DNA from: a bacterium
Lineage (GTDB): Bacteria; CG2-30-53-67; CG2-30-70-394
NCBI GenBank assembly: GCA_024278555.1
Contig: JAJRSX010000073.1
Location: 1 to 17,007 of the forward strand
Reading direction: 5' to 3'
DNA: 17,007 nucleotides
Below are positions 998-13,711 of the stretch, piece after piece. How positions within the stretch are numbered: position 1 is the stretch's first letter; each line of letters starts with the position of its first letter. The notes beneath the pieces are model-generated. The model worked only from the letters and a program-made list of their open reading frames with translations. It was not told the DNA's origin and did no database searches. The translations under genes and the position numbers were made by a program.

Positions 998-1903
998 ATG
1001 TCCCGTCCCCTCTACCGCCTGGCCTACCTCTTTGCCGAGGGGGTGCGCGCGGTGCGTACCCACCTGGCCCTGGCGGTGATGACCGGTCTCACGATCGCCG
1101 TCACCCTGCTCCTCCTCGGCCTCTTTGGGGCCGTCTACCACGACCTCGCCGGGGTGGCGGAGCGGATCCACGACGAGCTGGGGATGGTGGTCTTCCTCAC
1201 CGACGACTGCGCCCCTGCCCAGCGCGCCGCCCTCACCGCCTGGCTCCACCACCGCCCGGAGGTGGCGCGGATGGAGGAGACGAGCAAGGAGGAGGCGGCC
1301 GCCGCCTTCGCCAGCCGCCACCCGGAGAGCGCCCAGCTCCTCGCCCTGTTGGAGGAGAACCCCCTGCCGGCGAGCCTCGAAATCCACCTCGACCCGGCGG
1401 TGACCGCCTCGGCGATGACCGCCCTGGTCCACGAGGTGGAGGGGTTTGCCGGGGTCGACTCGGTGCGCTACGGCAAGCAGTGGCTGGCCACCCTCCTGAG
1501 CCTCACCCGCTGGCTGCGCGGTGCGGGCGCGGCGGTAGGCGCCCTGCTCGCGGTCGCCGCCCTCTTTATCGTCTCCAACCAGGTGGCGATGTCGATCTAC
1601 GCCCGCCGGGAGGAGATCGACATCATGCGCCTGATCGGCGCCACCAACCGTTTCATCCGCGCCCCCTTCTACCTTGAAGGGGCGATCACCGGCCTCTTCG
1701 GCGGGGTGGTGGCGGCACTCCTACTCTCCGCGGCCCACGCCCTGATCGGGCCGCTGCTCGCCGCCGGAGGCGGCGGCCTGCTGGTCGGCTCCCTCGACCT
1801 CATCTCCTGGAGGGCCGGCCAGGTGGCGGTCTTCGCGGGCGCCGGGGCGCTCCTTGGGATGGTCGGCTGCTGGGCCTCCCTCGGCCGCTTCCTGAAGGGA
1901 TGA
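998..1903 (+). CDS. ftsX: Cell division protein FtsX (permease-like)
   Basis: This 301-aa inner-membrane protein has the FtsX layout: a short cytoplasmic N-terminus, TM1 at about 24-47, a periplasmic loop at about 50-170, then TM2 (173-196), TM3 (226-248) and TM4 (272-294). The stretch with RREEIDIMRLIGATNRFIR (203-221) is the conserved FtsX/MacB-fold segment between TM2 and TM3. FtsX is the membrane partner of FtsE, and its periplasmic loop contacts EnvC-like coiled coils. The stop overlaps the start of the next gene (ATGA at 1900-1903), indicating translational coupling to the EnvC homologue. The 190-bp gap to ftsE is unusual, since the two genes normally abut or overlap. Confidence 0.94.
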   Translation: MSRPLYRLAYLFAEGVRAVRTHLALAVMTGLTIAVTLLLLGLFGAVYHDLAGVAERIHDELGMVVFLTDDCAPAQRAALTAWLHHRPEVARMEETSKEEAAAAFASRHPESAQLLALLEENPLPASLEIHLDPAVTASAMTALVHEVEGFAGVDSVRYGKQWLATLLSLTRWLRGAGAAVGALLAVAALFIVSNQVAMSIYARREEIDIMRLIGATNRFIRAPFYLEGAITGLFGGVVAALLLSAAHALIGPLLAAGGGGLLVGSLDLISWRAGQVAVFAGAGALLGMVGCWASLGRFLKG

Positions 1904-3066
1904 TCGCCCTCGCGCCACTGCTTTTGTGCTGGGTTACCGCCGCTGCCGCGGCGCCGGCGGAGGTGGGCGAGATCGAGGCGCAGGTGAAGTCACGCCAGGC
2001 AGGGCTGGCGGCGATCGAGAGCGAGATCGACGCCGCCCAGGCGGCCCGCGACGCGAACCAGAAGGAGGGTCGCGACCTCGCCCGCCGGCTGCACAAGGTG
2101 GAGGCGGAGCTCACCGCGCGGCGCCGGGCGGTGGCCCGCCTCAACCAGGCCACCACCGAGCTCACCGAAGAGGTGGCCCGCCTGCGCGAGCGGCTCGCCG
2201 CCGCCACCGACGCGGTCCGCAAAGAGCGCACCCTGCTCGCCGCCCGCCTGCGCCAGCTCCACAAGGAGGGGGATCCGCCGCCGGCCATCGCCCTGCTCGC
2301 CAGCCGCCTCGACCCGTGGGCGGTGCTCCTCGACACCCGCTACCAAGAGGCGGTGGCAGCGGCCACCGGCCGGCGCATCGACCACCTCACCGAGGAGCAG
2401 ACCCGGCTAGAGACGGTGCGCCGGGAGCTCGCCGCCCGCCAACTCCGCCTCGACGAGGAGGGCCGCGCCCTCACCGCCGCCCGCACCCGCCTCGCCGAGA
2501 AGGTAACGGAACAGCGGGCCCTGCTCGCCAAGAGCCGGCGGGCGGGGCAGACCCTCGAAGAGCGGATCGCCACTCTGCAGGGCGACCGGAAACGGCTCGC
2601 CGCCATGCTCGACGACCTCTCCGCCCGCCGCCAGGCGGTGGCGACCCAAGGCCGGATCGCCGCCAGCCGCGGCCACCTGCCGTGGCCCCTGGTCGGCGAC
2701 GTGGTCGGCTTCTTCGGCGCCACCCCGGAGGGGGGGGGGGCCCCGGCCAACGGCATCCGCATCCAGCCCACCGCCAAGGGGAAGGTGCGGGCGGTGTGGG
2801 AGGGCGATGTGATCTTCGCCGATTGGTTTGAGGGGTACGGGCTCCTCCTGATTGTTGACCACGGATCGGGGTACTATTCGCTCTACGGCCACGCCTCGGG
2901 GCTCCTCGCCGCTGCCGGGGACCACGTACACCAGGGCGAGGCCATTGCCGATACGGCAGGTTTGCAGGCCGATCCCCTCTACTTCGAACTTCGCCAAGAT
3001 GGCCGTCCCATCGACCCCCTTCACTGGCTTGAAGGGCTCGCGGCCGTGGCCAGCACGGCGGACTAG
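1900..3066 (+). CDS. envC: EnvC-type murein hydrolase activator (degenerate LytM/M23)
   Basis: The protein is 388 aa. A signal peptide (about 1-18, ending in an Ala-rich cleavage site) is followed by a long Arg/Glu/Ala-rich coiled coil (about 20-255) and a C-terminal LytM fold (about 262-380). Zinc ligands of active M23 peptidases are missing: the HxGxD-like segment reads NGIRI, and the HxH position reads LYFELR. This matches EnvC, which activates amidases rather than cutting peptidoglycan itself. Coupling to ftsX (4-nt overlap) fits FtsEX-EnvC control of septal amidases. Codons 277-281 contain an uninterrupted 11-G run (2730-2740) in the linker at the start of the LytM domain. One inserted G would end the protein at the TGA at 2829-2831. 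Confidence 0.9.
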   Translation: MIALAPLLLCWVTAAAAAPAEVGEIEAQVKSRQAGLAAIESEIDAAQAARDANQKEGRDLARRLHKVEAELTARRRAVARLNQATTELTEEVARLRERLAAATDAVRKERTLLAARLRQLHKEGDPPPAIALLASRLDPWAVLLDTRYQEAVAAATGRRIDHLTEEQTRLETVRRELAARQLRLDEEGRALTAARTRLAEKVTEQRALLAKSRRAGQTLEERIATLQGDRKRLAAMLDDLSARRQAVATQGRIAASRGHLPWPLVGDVVGFFGATPEGGGAPANGIRIQPTAKGKVRAVWEGDVIFADWFEGYGLLLIVDHGSGYYSLYGHASGLLAAAGDHVHQGEAIADTAGLQADPLYFELRQDGRPIDPLHWLEGLAAVASTAD

Positions 3067-3068
3067 AC

Positions 3069-3240
3069 CGCATCTCTCGCCATGAATCTGCTCCGAACGC
3101 GCAATCACCCGCAGCTCCCGGCCGTGTCCTCGCCGGACGCCTCGCCGCACCGCAAGTGCACCTGCGCCGTTTGGCTTGCGGGCCGGCCAGGATCTGCGGA
3201 CGCTTGCACGCTCTCGCGACGATCCCTGGCGAGAGATGCG
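3069..3240. repeat. 172-nt segment bounded by a 14-bp inverted repeat; candidate structured RNA
   Basis: A perfect 14-bp inverted repeat, CGCATCTCTCGCCA (3069-3082) and its complement (3227-3240), encloses the whole envC-ctpA gap. Further complementary segments nest inside it in order: GCAA/TTGC (3101-3104 with 3204-3207), CCGCAG/CTGCGG (3109-3114 with 3194-3199), CCGGCC/GGCCGG (3118-3123 with 3181-3186), GTCC/GGAC (3126-3129 with 3135-3138) and CCGCAAG/CTTGCGG (3150-3156 with 3175-3181, sharing one base with the previous stem). The nested arrangement suggests an RNA fold. A small inverted-repeat element is the alternative. No ORF is credible here. Confidence 0.6.
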
Positions 3241-3285
3241 ATCTAACCCCTACCCCGTCGGCGCATGAAGCGCCTGGAGACCATC

Positions 3286-4647
3286 ATGCGTAGATTTCTC
3301 GTCTGGCGCTTCGCGCCTGCCGCCCTTGTTGTCGCCCTCCTCCTGTTGAGCGGCGCGGTCTCCCGCGTCCCCGACGTGCGCGGCGACGAGGCGGCACCGT
3401 ACAAGGCCCTCAAGCGGTTCTCCGAGGTCCTGGAGATCGTTGAGCGCAACTACGTGGAGCCGGAGGAGACGGACGACCTGATCGACGGTGCGATCAACGG
3501 GATGCTGCAAAACCTCGACCCCCACTCGTCGTTCATGACCCCCGACCTCTACCGCGAGATGCAGGTGGACACGAAGGGCGAGTTCGGCGGCCTCGGGATC
3601 CAGATCGGCATCAAGGACGGCCAGCTCACGGTCATCGCCCCGATCGAGGACACCCCCGCCTACAAGGCCGGGATCGAGGCGGGTGATTTCATCATGAAGG
3701 TGGACGACCACTTCACCAAGGGGATGTCCCTGATGGAGGCGGTGAAGCTGATGCGCGGCCCCAAGGGGATGAAGGTCACCCTCACCATCGTTCGCCGCGG
3801 CCTCAAGGAGCCGAAGGAGATCACCATCGTTCGCGACATCATCGCCATCAAATCGGTGCGCTCGGAGGTCCTCGACGACACAGTCGGCTACATCCGTATC
3901 TCCCAGTTTCAGGAGAAGACCGACAAGGAGCTCGCCAAGGCGATCGCCAAGCTCCAGGAGGCGCACGTGGAGGGCTACCTCCTCGACCTGCGGAACAACC
4001 CCGGCGGCCTCCTGGACCAGGCGGTGAAGGTCTCCGACGCCTTCCTGCCGGCGAAGAAGCTGGTGGTCTACATCCAGAATCGCAAGGGGCAAAAGCGGGA
4101 GTACTTCACCGAGAACAACGGCCTCGCCGAGTCGATCCCCCTGGTGGTGCTGGTCAACGGCGGCTCGGCCTCGGCGAGTGAGATCGTCTCCGGCTGCCTC
4201 CAGGACCACCACCGGGCGGTGATCCTCGGGACCCAGACCTTCGGCAAGGGGTCGGTGCAGACGGTGATCCCCCTCTCCGGCGGCTACGGCCTACGGCTCA
4301 CCACCGCCAAGTACTACACGCCGCGCGGCACCTCGATCCAGAACACCGGCATCACCCCGGACATCGAGGTCGCCCAGGAGCTGATCGTCGCCCACCAAGA
4401 GAACGGCGCCTCCTTCCACATCAAGGAGCGCGACCTGCGCCACCGCCTGGAAAACAAGGACCTCCCCAAGGACGAGGAGGCCGCTCCCAGCGACGCGGGA
4501 GAGGGTGACGACCAGGAGGCGACCGGCGAGGAGGAGCGGCGCGACTACCAGCTCCAGCGTGCCATCGACCTGATCAAGTCGATCGCTGTCTACGAAAAGC
4601 TCGGCCAGCCGACGCCGGTCGAGGCGGCCGCCGCCGCCAACGGCTGA
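3286..4647 (+). CDS. ctpA: Carboxyl-terminal processing protease CtpA (S41 family)
   Basis: The protein is 453 aa from ATG 3286. That start has GGAG (3276-3279) 6 nt upstream, whereas the in-frame ATG at 3265 has no such site. The N-terminus carries an uncleaved anchor or signal segment (about residues 9-25). The PDZ domain (about 93-175, with GGLGIQIG) and the S41 core follow. The NPGG motif is at 238-241, the catalytic Ser is in SASASEI (Ser296) and the general-base Lys is in FGKGSVQ (Lys321). The 25-residue Ser-Lys spacing matches Tsp/Prc. An acidic, charged C-terminal tail (from about 390) is variable in the family. These periplasmic proteases trim C-termini, often of peptidoglycan hydrolases, and ctpA after envC is a recurrent neighbourhood. 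Confidence 0.94.
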   Translation: MRRFLVWRFAPAALVVALLLLSGAVSRVPDVRGDEAAPYKALKRFSEVLEIVERNYVEPEETDDLIDGAINGMLQNLDPHSSFMTPDLYREMQVDTKGEFGGLGIQIGIKDGQLTVIAPIEDTPAYKAGIEAGDFIMKVDDHFTKGMSLMEAVKLMRGPKGMKVTLTIVRRGLKEPKEITIVRDIIAIKSVRSEVLDDTVGYIRISQFQEKTDKELAKAIAKLQEAHVEGYLLDLRNNPGGLLDQAVKVSDAFLPAKKLVVYIQNRKGQKREYFTENNGLAESIPLVVLVNGGSASASEIVSGCLQDHHRAVILGTQTFGKGSVQTVIPLSGGYGLRLTTAKYYTPRGTSIQNTGITPDIEVAQELIVAHQENGASFHIKERDLRHRLENKDLPKDEEAAPSDAGEGDDQEATGEEERRDYQLQRAIDLIKSIAVYEKLGQPTPVEAAAAANG

Positions 4648-6671: not shown

Positions 6672-7061
6672 TCACGCCTCCCAGACCGCCTCCGGGTAGT
6701 GCTCTCGAATGAGCACATCCTTGGTGAGGAGGGGGGTACTGTCGATGGCGGCCTGGGCGACAATCAACCGGTCGAAGGGATCCCGGGTCCACGTCTGGCC
6801 GAGGGCCACGGCGACCACCTCGGGAAACGGCCTATCGCTGCGGGTGAGGCCGAGACGTCGGTGCAGATCTTCGACCACCTCACCACCGGGGATCGCGGTT
6901 CGGCCGATCTCGCAGAGGTACTCCAGCTCCAACTCGACCATGGGGGAGATCACCAGAGCGTGGTCCTGGAGCAGGGCCCGGTTCCCCTCTCCGAGGCATT
7001 CGAGGTCGCCGGCAAAGAGCCACGCGACCACGTGGGTGTCGAGGTGGATCACGGCCTCCAC
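6672..7061 (-). CDS. vapC: PIN-domain toxin, VapC-like ribonuclease
   Basis: A PIN-domain protein of 129 aa, the usual VapC length. The acidic metal-binding residues expected of PIN nucleases are present: Asp8 in HLDTHV, Glu43 in SPMVELELEYL, Asp94/Asp97 in RDPFDRLIVAQA and Asp115 in LLTKD. VapC toxins are Mg-dependent RNases, often cutting tRNA or rRNA, held in check by a co-translated antitoxin. The gene overlaps the antitoxin by 13 nt, typical of such operons. It looks intact. It sits between tRNA-Val and tRNA-Asp on the same strand as the tRNAs. The RNA target cannot be inferred. Confidence 0.9.
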   Translation of the reverse strand: MEAVIHLDTHVVAWLFAGDLECLGEGNRALLQDHALVISPMVELELEYLCEIGRTAIPGGEVVEDLHRRLGLTRSDRPFPEVVAVALGQTWTRDPFDRLIVAQAAIDSTPLLTKDVLIREHYPEAVWEA

Positions 7062-7270
7062 TCGCCGGACCAGTCTCGGTGCACCAGCTCCTCGGGGTCA
7101 CACTTGAGGTAGTCGGAGCGCCTGGGGAGATGGTCGAGAGGGCTGCCCCCCACCGGCACGATGCGCAACAGATGACCCCGCCGCTCCACCTCAAGGGGGA
7201 TGCCCGATTCCAGCACCTGGTCCAGAAGGCGGTAGATATTCGCCCGAAGCTTCGATGCGTTCATGGGCAT
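7049..7270 (-). CDS. Phd/YefM-like antitoxin (VapB role)
   Basis: This is a 73-aa protein from ATG 7270, chosen because GAGG lies about 8 nt upstream and the conserved N-terminus (MNASKLRANIYRLLDQVLES) begins just after it. A longer frame to 7342 would start inside the probable promoter. The N-terminal half resembles the Phd/YefM DNA-binding fold (ASKLRANIYRLLD, then PLEVERRGHLLRIVP). The C-terminal tail (LVHRDWSGEW) is likely the toxin-neutralising part. It directly precedes and overlaps the PIN toxin. Autoregulation through the CGTACG-rich upstream DNA is likely but inferred. Confidence 0.85.
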   Translation of the reverse strand: MPMNASKLRANIYRLLDQVLESGIPLEVERRGHLLRIVPVGGSPLDHLPRRSDYLKCDPEELVHRDWSGEWRP

Positions 7271-7313
7271 GGCCAATTCCTCGATCTCCACTCTCCCCAA
7301 CAGCACGAAATCG

Positions 7314-7356
7314 AGGGTATCGCAACCACGTACGTACGTCAACGATACTACGTACG
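7314..7356 (-). promoter_or_regulatory. Probable vapBC promoter with CGTACG operator repeats
   Basis: On the minus strand TTGACG (complement of 7337-7342) and TACCCT (complement of 7314-7319) are separated by 17 bp: a good -35 and a weak -10. The overlapping DNA holds self-complementary repeats ACGTACGTACGT (7328-7339) and TACGTACG (7349-7356), positioned as an operator for antitoxin autorepression would be. Confidence 0.45.
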
Positions 7357-11804: not shown

Positions 11805-11821
11805 GCCGGTTTCCCGAGGTT

Positions 11822-11996
11822 GCCTCCGGCTAAAAGCCGGCTCCCGTAGGCGATCCCGGCCCGCAGGGCCGGCCGCGCCCGCGGCGCGGTTCGCGAGCAG
11901 GAGCTCGCTCCTACCACACCCCCAACAACCGAAGTCCTCCCCGGCCGCAAGCCGGCACCACCCCCCTCACCCCCCCGCGAGCCAAGCGAGCCCCCC
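11822..11996 (+). repeat. Modular hairpin leader upstream of thiG
   Basis: Hairpins in order: CCGGCT-AAA-AGCCGG (11826-11840), CCGGCCC-GCA-GGGCCGG (11856-11872), CCGCGCC-CGC-GGCGCGG (11873-11889) and GCGAGC-AGGA-GCTCGC (11893-11908), then CTCCTACC. This follows the plan of the 2-74 and 11424-11496 copies, but the arms have changed on both sides so that pairing is kept. After a C-rich spacer the core GCCAAGCG (11981-11988) sits 8 nt before the ATG at 11997. Confidence 0.75.
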
Positions 11997-12912: not shown

Positions 12913-13200
12913 ATGGCTACGCCTCCAACACAGATCTCGGCGTACATCTCGGCGGAAACCAAGGCGCTCGTGGAACGGTACACACGCGCGCACGGCATCA
13001 AGAAGGGGTTCCTCATTGAGACCGCCCTTCTTCACCACCTGGAGGCGCTCCAGGAGATCCCCGCAGACGTCATCATCCCGCCGCGACTGGTGGTGAGCCG
13101 CGCCAGCGGCGAGGCGCTTGTCGATCGCCTCGCCACCCCGCCCGAGCCCACGCCCGCGATGAAGGAGCTCTTCACCGAGGCCGACGATGACGACGGTTGA
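12913..13200 (+). CDS. Ribbon-helix-helix antitoxin of a GNAT toxin pair
   Basis: The protein is 95 aa with GGAG 7 nt before ATG 12913. The N-terminal half (TQISAYISAETKALVERYT, then IKKGFLIETALLHHLEAL) reads as a ribbon-helix-helix DNA-binding domain: a beta strand followed by two helices. The C-terminal half is Pro-rich, then acidic (PTPAMKELFTEADDDDG), as expected for an unstructured toxin-binding tail. It overlaps the GNAT gene by 14 nt. It probably represses its own operon through the palindrome over the -10 box. The subfamily is not certain. Confidence 0.82.
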   Translation: MATPPTQISAYISAETKALVERYTRAHGIKKGFLIETALLHHLEALQEIPADVIIPPRLVVSRASGEALVDRLATPPEPTPAMKELFTEADDDDG

Positions 13201-13711
13201 GGTACGGCGGCTACTGCCCGATGACAACCGATCGACCTTCCGCTCCGGCAACCCAGACCTCGACCGCTTTTTTCACCGATATGCAGGACAAAACCAGTTT
13301 CGCCACTACGTGGGCATCACCTACGTCGCCATTGAGGGAGCAGCGATTCTAGGTTACGTGACGGTGGCCGCCTCCCACATCGAGATCGAGGAGCTCCCCC
13401 CATCCCACCGCCGGCGCCTCCCTCGCTACCCCCTGCCCATCCTCCGGGTGGCACGTCTCGCCGTGGCCGAGTCCGTCCAGGGTAGCGGTGTGGGACGCAC
13501 ACTCCTGCGGGCCGCGTGCATCCTCGCTCGTGAGCAGGCGAACCGCACCGGCTGTATCGGCGTGGTCGTCGACGCCAAACCCGATGCGGTCCAATTTTAC
13601 CGCCGGTACGGCTTCGAGCCCCTCGAGATCGTCGAAGGGGGCCTCGGGGACCGCCCACAACCGCGGCCCCTCTTCCTCCCGGTGGAGGCCATCCCTGGGG
13701 CGACAAGCTAA
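13187..13711 (+). CDS. GNAT acetyltransferase toxin (TacT/AtaT-like)
   Basis: The protein is 174 aa. FRSGNPDLDRFFHRYAGQNQ near the N-terminus and the GYVTVAASHIEIEELP and RYPLPILRVARLAVAESVQGSGVGRTLL segments match toxin-type GNAT proteins. The acetyl-CoA loop is QGSGVGRTL, and FYRRYGFEPL holds the Tyr near the active site. Such toxins acetylate the amino group of charged tRNAs and stop translation. GAGG lies 6 nt before the ATG, inside the antitoxin gene. The stop overlaps the stop of the convergent 64-aa gene by 4 nt (13708-13711). Confidence 0.87.
   Translation: MTTVEVRRLLPDDNRSTFRSGNPDLDRFFHRYAGQNQFRHYVGITYVAIEGAAILGYVTVAASHIEIEELPPSHRRRLPRYPLPILRVARLAVAESVQGSGVGRTLLRAACILAREQANRTGCIGVVVDAKPDAVQFYRRYGFEPLEIVEGGLGDRPQPRPLFLPVEAIPGATS

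Follow-up and report, generated by a model that had tools for sequence, protein, structure and literature searches.

A palindrome at the envC stop codon is very probably a decayed MITE with IS1380-type ends

RUP is counted among the MITEs. These elements are under 300 bp in size, non-coding and present in several copies, carry terminal inverted repeats like those of insertion sequences (IS), and can form a long hairpin (PMC4133298, PMC11578231). Palindromes of the REP/BIME type, associated with RAYT transposases, are described as GTAG-tagged in PMC3733652. The locus compared here with these systems lies in a 17-kb window, the whole stretch of DNA analysed, which is contig C42 of a 3.06-Mb draft genome (G000); all coordinates of the element refer to this window. 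On sequence grounds, we consider it very probable that the palindrome between envC and ctpA is an old, decayed and non-autonomous foldback MITE (miniature inverted-repeat transposable element) of the IS1380 type, which came to lie at the envC stop codon before the species of the window and its nearest sequenced relative split. The upstream gene, envC (1900-3066, + strand), encodes an M23 peptidase (Pfam PF01551, E 4e-19), for which the best NCBIfam match was EnvC, under its cut-off. The downstream gene, ctpA (3265-4647, + strand), encodes an S41 peptidase (TIGR00225, 356 bits against a cut-off of 219; PF03572) and may start at ATG 3265 or ATG 3286. Elsewhere in the window, the translations of adjacent small genes at 6672-7342 (- strand) and 12913-13711 resembled, by eye, toxin-antitoxin pairs, of the PIN-domain and acetyltransferase types.

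The initial annotation had described a perfect 14-bp inverted pair, with further stems nested inside it in a consistent order. Both were recovered. The pair consists of CGCATCTCTCGCCA at 3069-3082 and TGGCGAGAGATGCG at 3227-3240, and the nested stems correspond to arms 3095-3124/3184-3213 and 3140-3156/3175-3191. That the structure exceeds chance was also confirmed, as none of 200 dinucleotide shuffles folded as stably as segment 3069-3240 on either strand. The fold of this segment reached -91.8 kcal/mol on the + strand (z -6.1) and -110.4 kcal/mol on the - strand (z -7.9), and the z values of the slightly longer segment 3064-3245 were -6.8 and -9.35, respectively, the strand opposite to the genes folding better than the mRNA strand. 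One detail had to be corrected: the palindrome does not begin right after the envC stop, it begins inside this codon (TAG, 3064-3066).

The natural edges of the palindrome are positions 3067 and 3242, with flanks CTAG and CTAA. Since the window copy reads CTAG-ACCGCATCTCTCGCCA...TGGCGAGAGATGCGAT-CTAA, the element proper was placed at 3067-3242 (176 bp, + strand), a long imperfect hairpin with full-length relatives in the sister species. The left terminal inverted repeat, ACCGCATCTCTCGCCA (3067-3082, + strand; family consensus CCCGCATTTCTCACCA), was defined by alignment, and copies of this terminus exist elsewhere in both genomes. The right one (3227-3242, - strand; reverse complement ATCGCATCTCTCGCCA) was defined by the sequence, an inverted-repeat search and alignment. 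The same type of search placed the 14-bp perfect pair within longer arms at 3064-3088 and 3221-3245 (25 nt, 88%), as expected of the terminal inverted repeats of a MITE. On the outside are two short direct repeats visible in the + strand sequence, CTAG at 3063-3066, which includes the envC stop, and CTAA at 3243-3246, one change away from CTAG. Without coding signal, the element falls in the size range of MITEs (about 30-300 bp, no transposase gene).

An open frame does run through the element from ATG 3082 to TAA 3243-3245. Its 54 codons are open and the first seven (MNLLRTR) are unchanged in the ortholog, as could be expected of a small protein gene. The substitutions were nevertheless distributed 9/13/6 by codon position, third positions not being in excess. 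In the ortholog the frame is disrupted by a 2-nt indel and ends early. As no Pfam match was obtained either, a protein is almost certainly not encoded here.

The family terminus, TAG followed by CCCGCATTTCTCACC, relates the element to a known group of transposons. Annotated insertion sequences of the IS1380 family, bordered by CTAG direct repeats, have ends that match CCCGCATTTCTCACC. The sequence CCCGCATTTCTCACAG ends a 1.6-kb element on pKF715A, a P. putida plasmid, and on a megaplasmid of Stutzerimonas; both enclose an annotated IS1380-family transposase (WP_034018616.1) and have CTAG flanks, and the P. putida-type transposase scored 406.8 bits with the NCBIfam IS1380 model (cut-off 180). 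On Bradyrhizobium and Rhizobium plasmids, the same or similar ends are found about 1.6 kb apart with CTAG flanks and no transposase listed. In more distant members of the IS1380 family, the ends are CCCGGATTTCTCAT or CCCGCCTTATTCACCA and the flanks TTAG/CTAG. The exact terminus of the element, taken alone, was present in three IMG/VR contigs, in two of which it closes a contig-end repeat and carries CTAG, and no similar whole element was found in the phage and plasmid collections. Two phage-like IMG/VR contigs both start in the same repeat, which ends exactly in GGTGAGAAATGCGGGCTAG and is probably an unassembled IS1380-like insertion.

The flanks of the element are also readable as TA duplications, the signature of an IS630/mariner-type MITE like RUP or the Correia elements. 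We hold such an origin to be extremely improbable, as no DDE_3 (PF13358) transposase match was obtained in G000 or in the sister species, and as the termini match IS1380 elements, whose repeated bases are four, CTAG. The window's own genome carries an IS1380 transposase (contig C4; NF033539, 195.2 bits, cut-off 180). This gene is bounded by inverted repeats unlike those of the MITE and its frame appears broken; direct parentage of the element is therefore not claimed, and this IS1380 copy was dropped as a direct parent because of its different ends. No autonomous IS1380 element with exactly the terminus of the element was found in G000 or in the sister species, which, like the differing repeats and broken frame on C4, counts against an IS1380-type MITE.

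The third reading considered in the initial annotation, a small element with terminal inverted repeats, is supported by these ends, by the short flanking direct repeats and by the existence of copies at unrelated loci. The search of the genome for other copies that it had suggested returned related sequence on other contigs, the lowest E value being 1e-12. Relatives, both full-length and partial, are found repeatedly in G000 and in Nitrospirae bacterium CG2_30_70_394 (G001), the nearest sequenced species and the only other genome of the genus compared; the copy numbers given here come from similarity searches. The inner stem region (3109-3211, + strand) was 76% identical to C192:27412-27514 of G000 (E 1e-12), with more matches in C150 and C133, and a reciprocal search of G000 with one related sequence gave 19 places at E<=0.1. 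The right-arm module (3181-3240, + strand), which exists elsewhere alone or split by nested REP palindromes, showed 78% identity (E 1e-7) with a query constructed from its relatives, with 10 places in G000. In G001, the copy at the orthologous site occupies C123:6481-6669, and three further full-length copies were located at C123:12890-13079, C69:1629-1892 and C151:28209-28386. With a covariance model built on five copies, the matches numbered 12 in G000 and 17 in G001; another 5 came from G005, which belongs to a sister family of the class. Some of these matches are the two strands of one palindrome. The other five class members gave none. Several copies thus sit at unrelated sites, as in a MITE family. 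The orientation of the element is not fixed, the C34 copy lying opposite to the others.

The inner stem region is also part of a second palindrome family, likewise dispersed but shorter (about 115-125 bp), with the apex CGTAC-AACNAG-TACG. These palindromes are often located directly after stop codons (C189 and C21 in G000, C131 in G001) and can be in tandem (C21 and C131). Foldback elements were also present in G005, with an IS1380-like terminus, CCCG(A/G)ATATTGCATGAG, after TTAG/CTAG. Their apex was weakly similar to that of the element (E 1e-4 over 48 nt), and one G005 copy shared the termini only.

An origin as a palindrome of the REP/BIME type, moved by a RAYT (Y1) transposase, might be considered, because G000 possesses four Y1_Tnp genes above the family cut-off and because many GTAGGAGC...GCTCCTAC palindromes are present in the genome, one of them nested in a related element on C69 of G001. 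We judge this origin highly improbable. The window element is devoid of the GTAG tag and showed no association with RAYT genes, near which the matches to its relatives detected by blastn and a self-inverted-repeat comparison were all of chance length (14 and 20 nt); one RAYT gene is bordered on each side by a palindrome of 56-59 bp of a different type. The 16-bp transposon-type termini and 4-bp flanking repeats of the element also argue against it. The four RAYT-like genes of G000 are on C27, C70, C185 and C170, the C70 gene being the one between the two palindromes. The REP palindrome on C69 of G001, GTAGGAGC...GCTCCTACC, is nested in the apex of the full-length copy at 1629-1892, and C13, C73 and C188 of G000 look like similar REP-in-element composites. 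The window itself holds a REP-like palindromic stretch at 11815-11916, CCGGCTCCCGTAGGCGATCC...GGAGCTCGCTCCTACC, similar to the nested one.

A structured RNA that could control ctpA or be a processing site had been put forward in the initial annotation. The strong fold, the copy kept at the same site in the sister species with 78% identity and the 11 pairs with two-sided changes across five copies would fit a conserved RNA controlling ctpA from the gap (leader, processing site or riboregulator). The comparison of the two species makes it very unlikely. The 78% identity of the envC-ctpA gap is to be compared with 75% at the four-fold degenerate sites of ctpA and 63% at those of envC, and the gap is therefore not clearly slower than synonymous sites. 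The + strand of the ortholog folded at the shuffled mean (z 0.0 and -0.4) whereas its - strand kept z -4.3 to -4.8, so that in the ortholog, as in the window, the antisense strand folds better. Of the terminal pairs, 10/16 were kept in the ortholog versus 15/16 in the window. In the consensus fold of the five copies, 11 of the 56 pairs showed a two-sided change in at least one copy. Such changes are ambiguous, since arm copying or subfamily descent can also produce them; as the five copies are dispersed elements, they may reflect subfamilies and do not show a function before ctpA.

Other observations point in the same direction. The copies adjoin unrelated genes. The search of the window with Rfam, at gathering and relaxed thresholds, returned only four tRNAs and one weak animal microRNA model far under the cut-off, and neither a promoter-like site nor an intrinsic terminator (GC-rich stem and T run) was found. 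In G003 and G005, two species of the sister family whose ctpA is preceded by an envC-like end, the intervening gap measures about 100 nt and gave no covariance-model match; the element is absent from it.

The direct repeats are CTAG/CTAA in the window and CTAA on both sides in the orthologous copy. The flanks of other copies were TTAG/CTAG, GTAG/CTAG, TGAG/CTAG, CTTA/CTAA, CTAA/TGAA and TTAG/CTAG, centred on YTAR. Most of them are imperfect, which counts against a MITE and is, as expected, what old duplications would look like. The C69 copy of G001 was absent at the orthologous locus of G000 (C139), where the gene ends in TAA without an element terminus after it and the next block of conserved sequence can be made out beyond that point; the rest of the intergenic region differs, so that the exact empty site is illegible. 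At the window site, both G000 and G001 carry the element. The only relatives without it are distant and too diverged for the exact empty site between envC and ctpA to be legible, a further point against the MITE reading.

Analysis of the open reading frames and of third-position GC showed that the upstream gene ends in the flanking repeat also at C69, C123b and C34, and that the elements at C194, C198 and C83 start directly at a stop or no more than about 6 nt from it. The tetranucleotide CTAG was rare: base composition predicts 47.8 sites for the window, and 10 are present. This rarity would account for the location of the elements, since TAG stops preceded by a C supply CTAG. With the target supplied by the stop codon, insertion leaves the upstream gene intact. 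Target choice, together with selection against disruptive insertions, would suffice to explain the stop-codon position.

We propose that the element inserted in the common ancestor of the window species and CG2_30_70_394, before their split. An IS1380-family transposase acting in trans would most likely have carried it into a CTAG/CTAA target provided by the envC stop codon, four bases being duplicated, with the result that envC would have kept its stop codon and ctpA its own upstream region. The element would have drifted afterwards. Alongside what was observed directly (the dispersed copies, the family termini with their IS1380-like ends, the flanking repeats, the same-site copy of the sister species and the loss of its mRNA-strand fold), we infer the direction of the event, an insertion, and the lack of a selected function in the element.

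According to the predicted folds, the co-transcribed element should still fold into a strong hairpin, lying between the messages of envC and ctpA, and a passive effect of this hairpin on the mRNA is possible. It could be supposed in addition that an element of this same mobile origin was co-opted, the hairpin now stabilising the envC 3' end or insulating ctpA. Its site directly at the stop codon, its strong hairpin and its presence in both species are compatible with this idea, and for TIMEs, hairpins of this kind have been predicted in co-transcribed RNA, with a suggested effect on expression (PMC4133298). Co-option nevertheless seems unlikely, as retention over one species split needs no selection and the mRNA-strand fold was lost in one of the two species. 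The sequences provided no positive support for a regulatory role.

With an inserted and decayed MITE, the idea of a riboregulator for ctpA turns out to be a false lead, and a set of palindromes from a bacterial lineage that has been little studied finds its explanation in miniature transposons of the IS1380 type, the CTAG target providing a simple reason for their position on stop codons. There is a small chance that the hairpin family is more than debris: foldbacks with IS1380-type ends and a related apex (CGTAC...GTACGCCTGCGG) exist in two families of the class, that of G000/G001 and that of G005, and differ there in their termini. They would share a preference for stop codons because CTAG, their rare target, has mostly survived at these positions. 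If the apex were under selection, it could be a binding site for the transposase or a host factor, or an RNA 3'-end element, and insertion at stop codons would be a safe-haven strategy.

The MITE is a known kind of element, and this IS1380-ended family appears to be undescribed in the literature searched, a partial coverage in which no IS1380-type MITE was found. Like CREE/Correia, RUP, TIMEs and MITEPye1, the window element is short, non-coding and multicopy, with IS-like termini and a long hairpin. It has IS1380-type ends, whereas the TIMEs are Tn3-derived and MITEPye1 is of the IS1182 type. As a dispersed intergenic palindrome it resembles the REP/BIME sequences, which are abundant in the same genome, but it is much longer, is not tagged by GTAG and possesses transposon-type termini and flanking repeats. 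With the IS1380-family insertion sequences (the WP_034018616.1 element, ISSp1 and IS1380A) it has in common the CCCGCATTTCTCAC termini and the CTAG or TTAG/CTAG flanks, and it differs from them in being a 176 bp sequence without transposase that folds on itself over its whole length.
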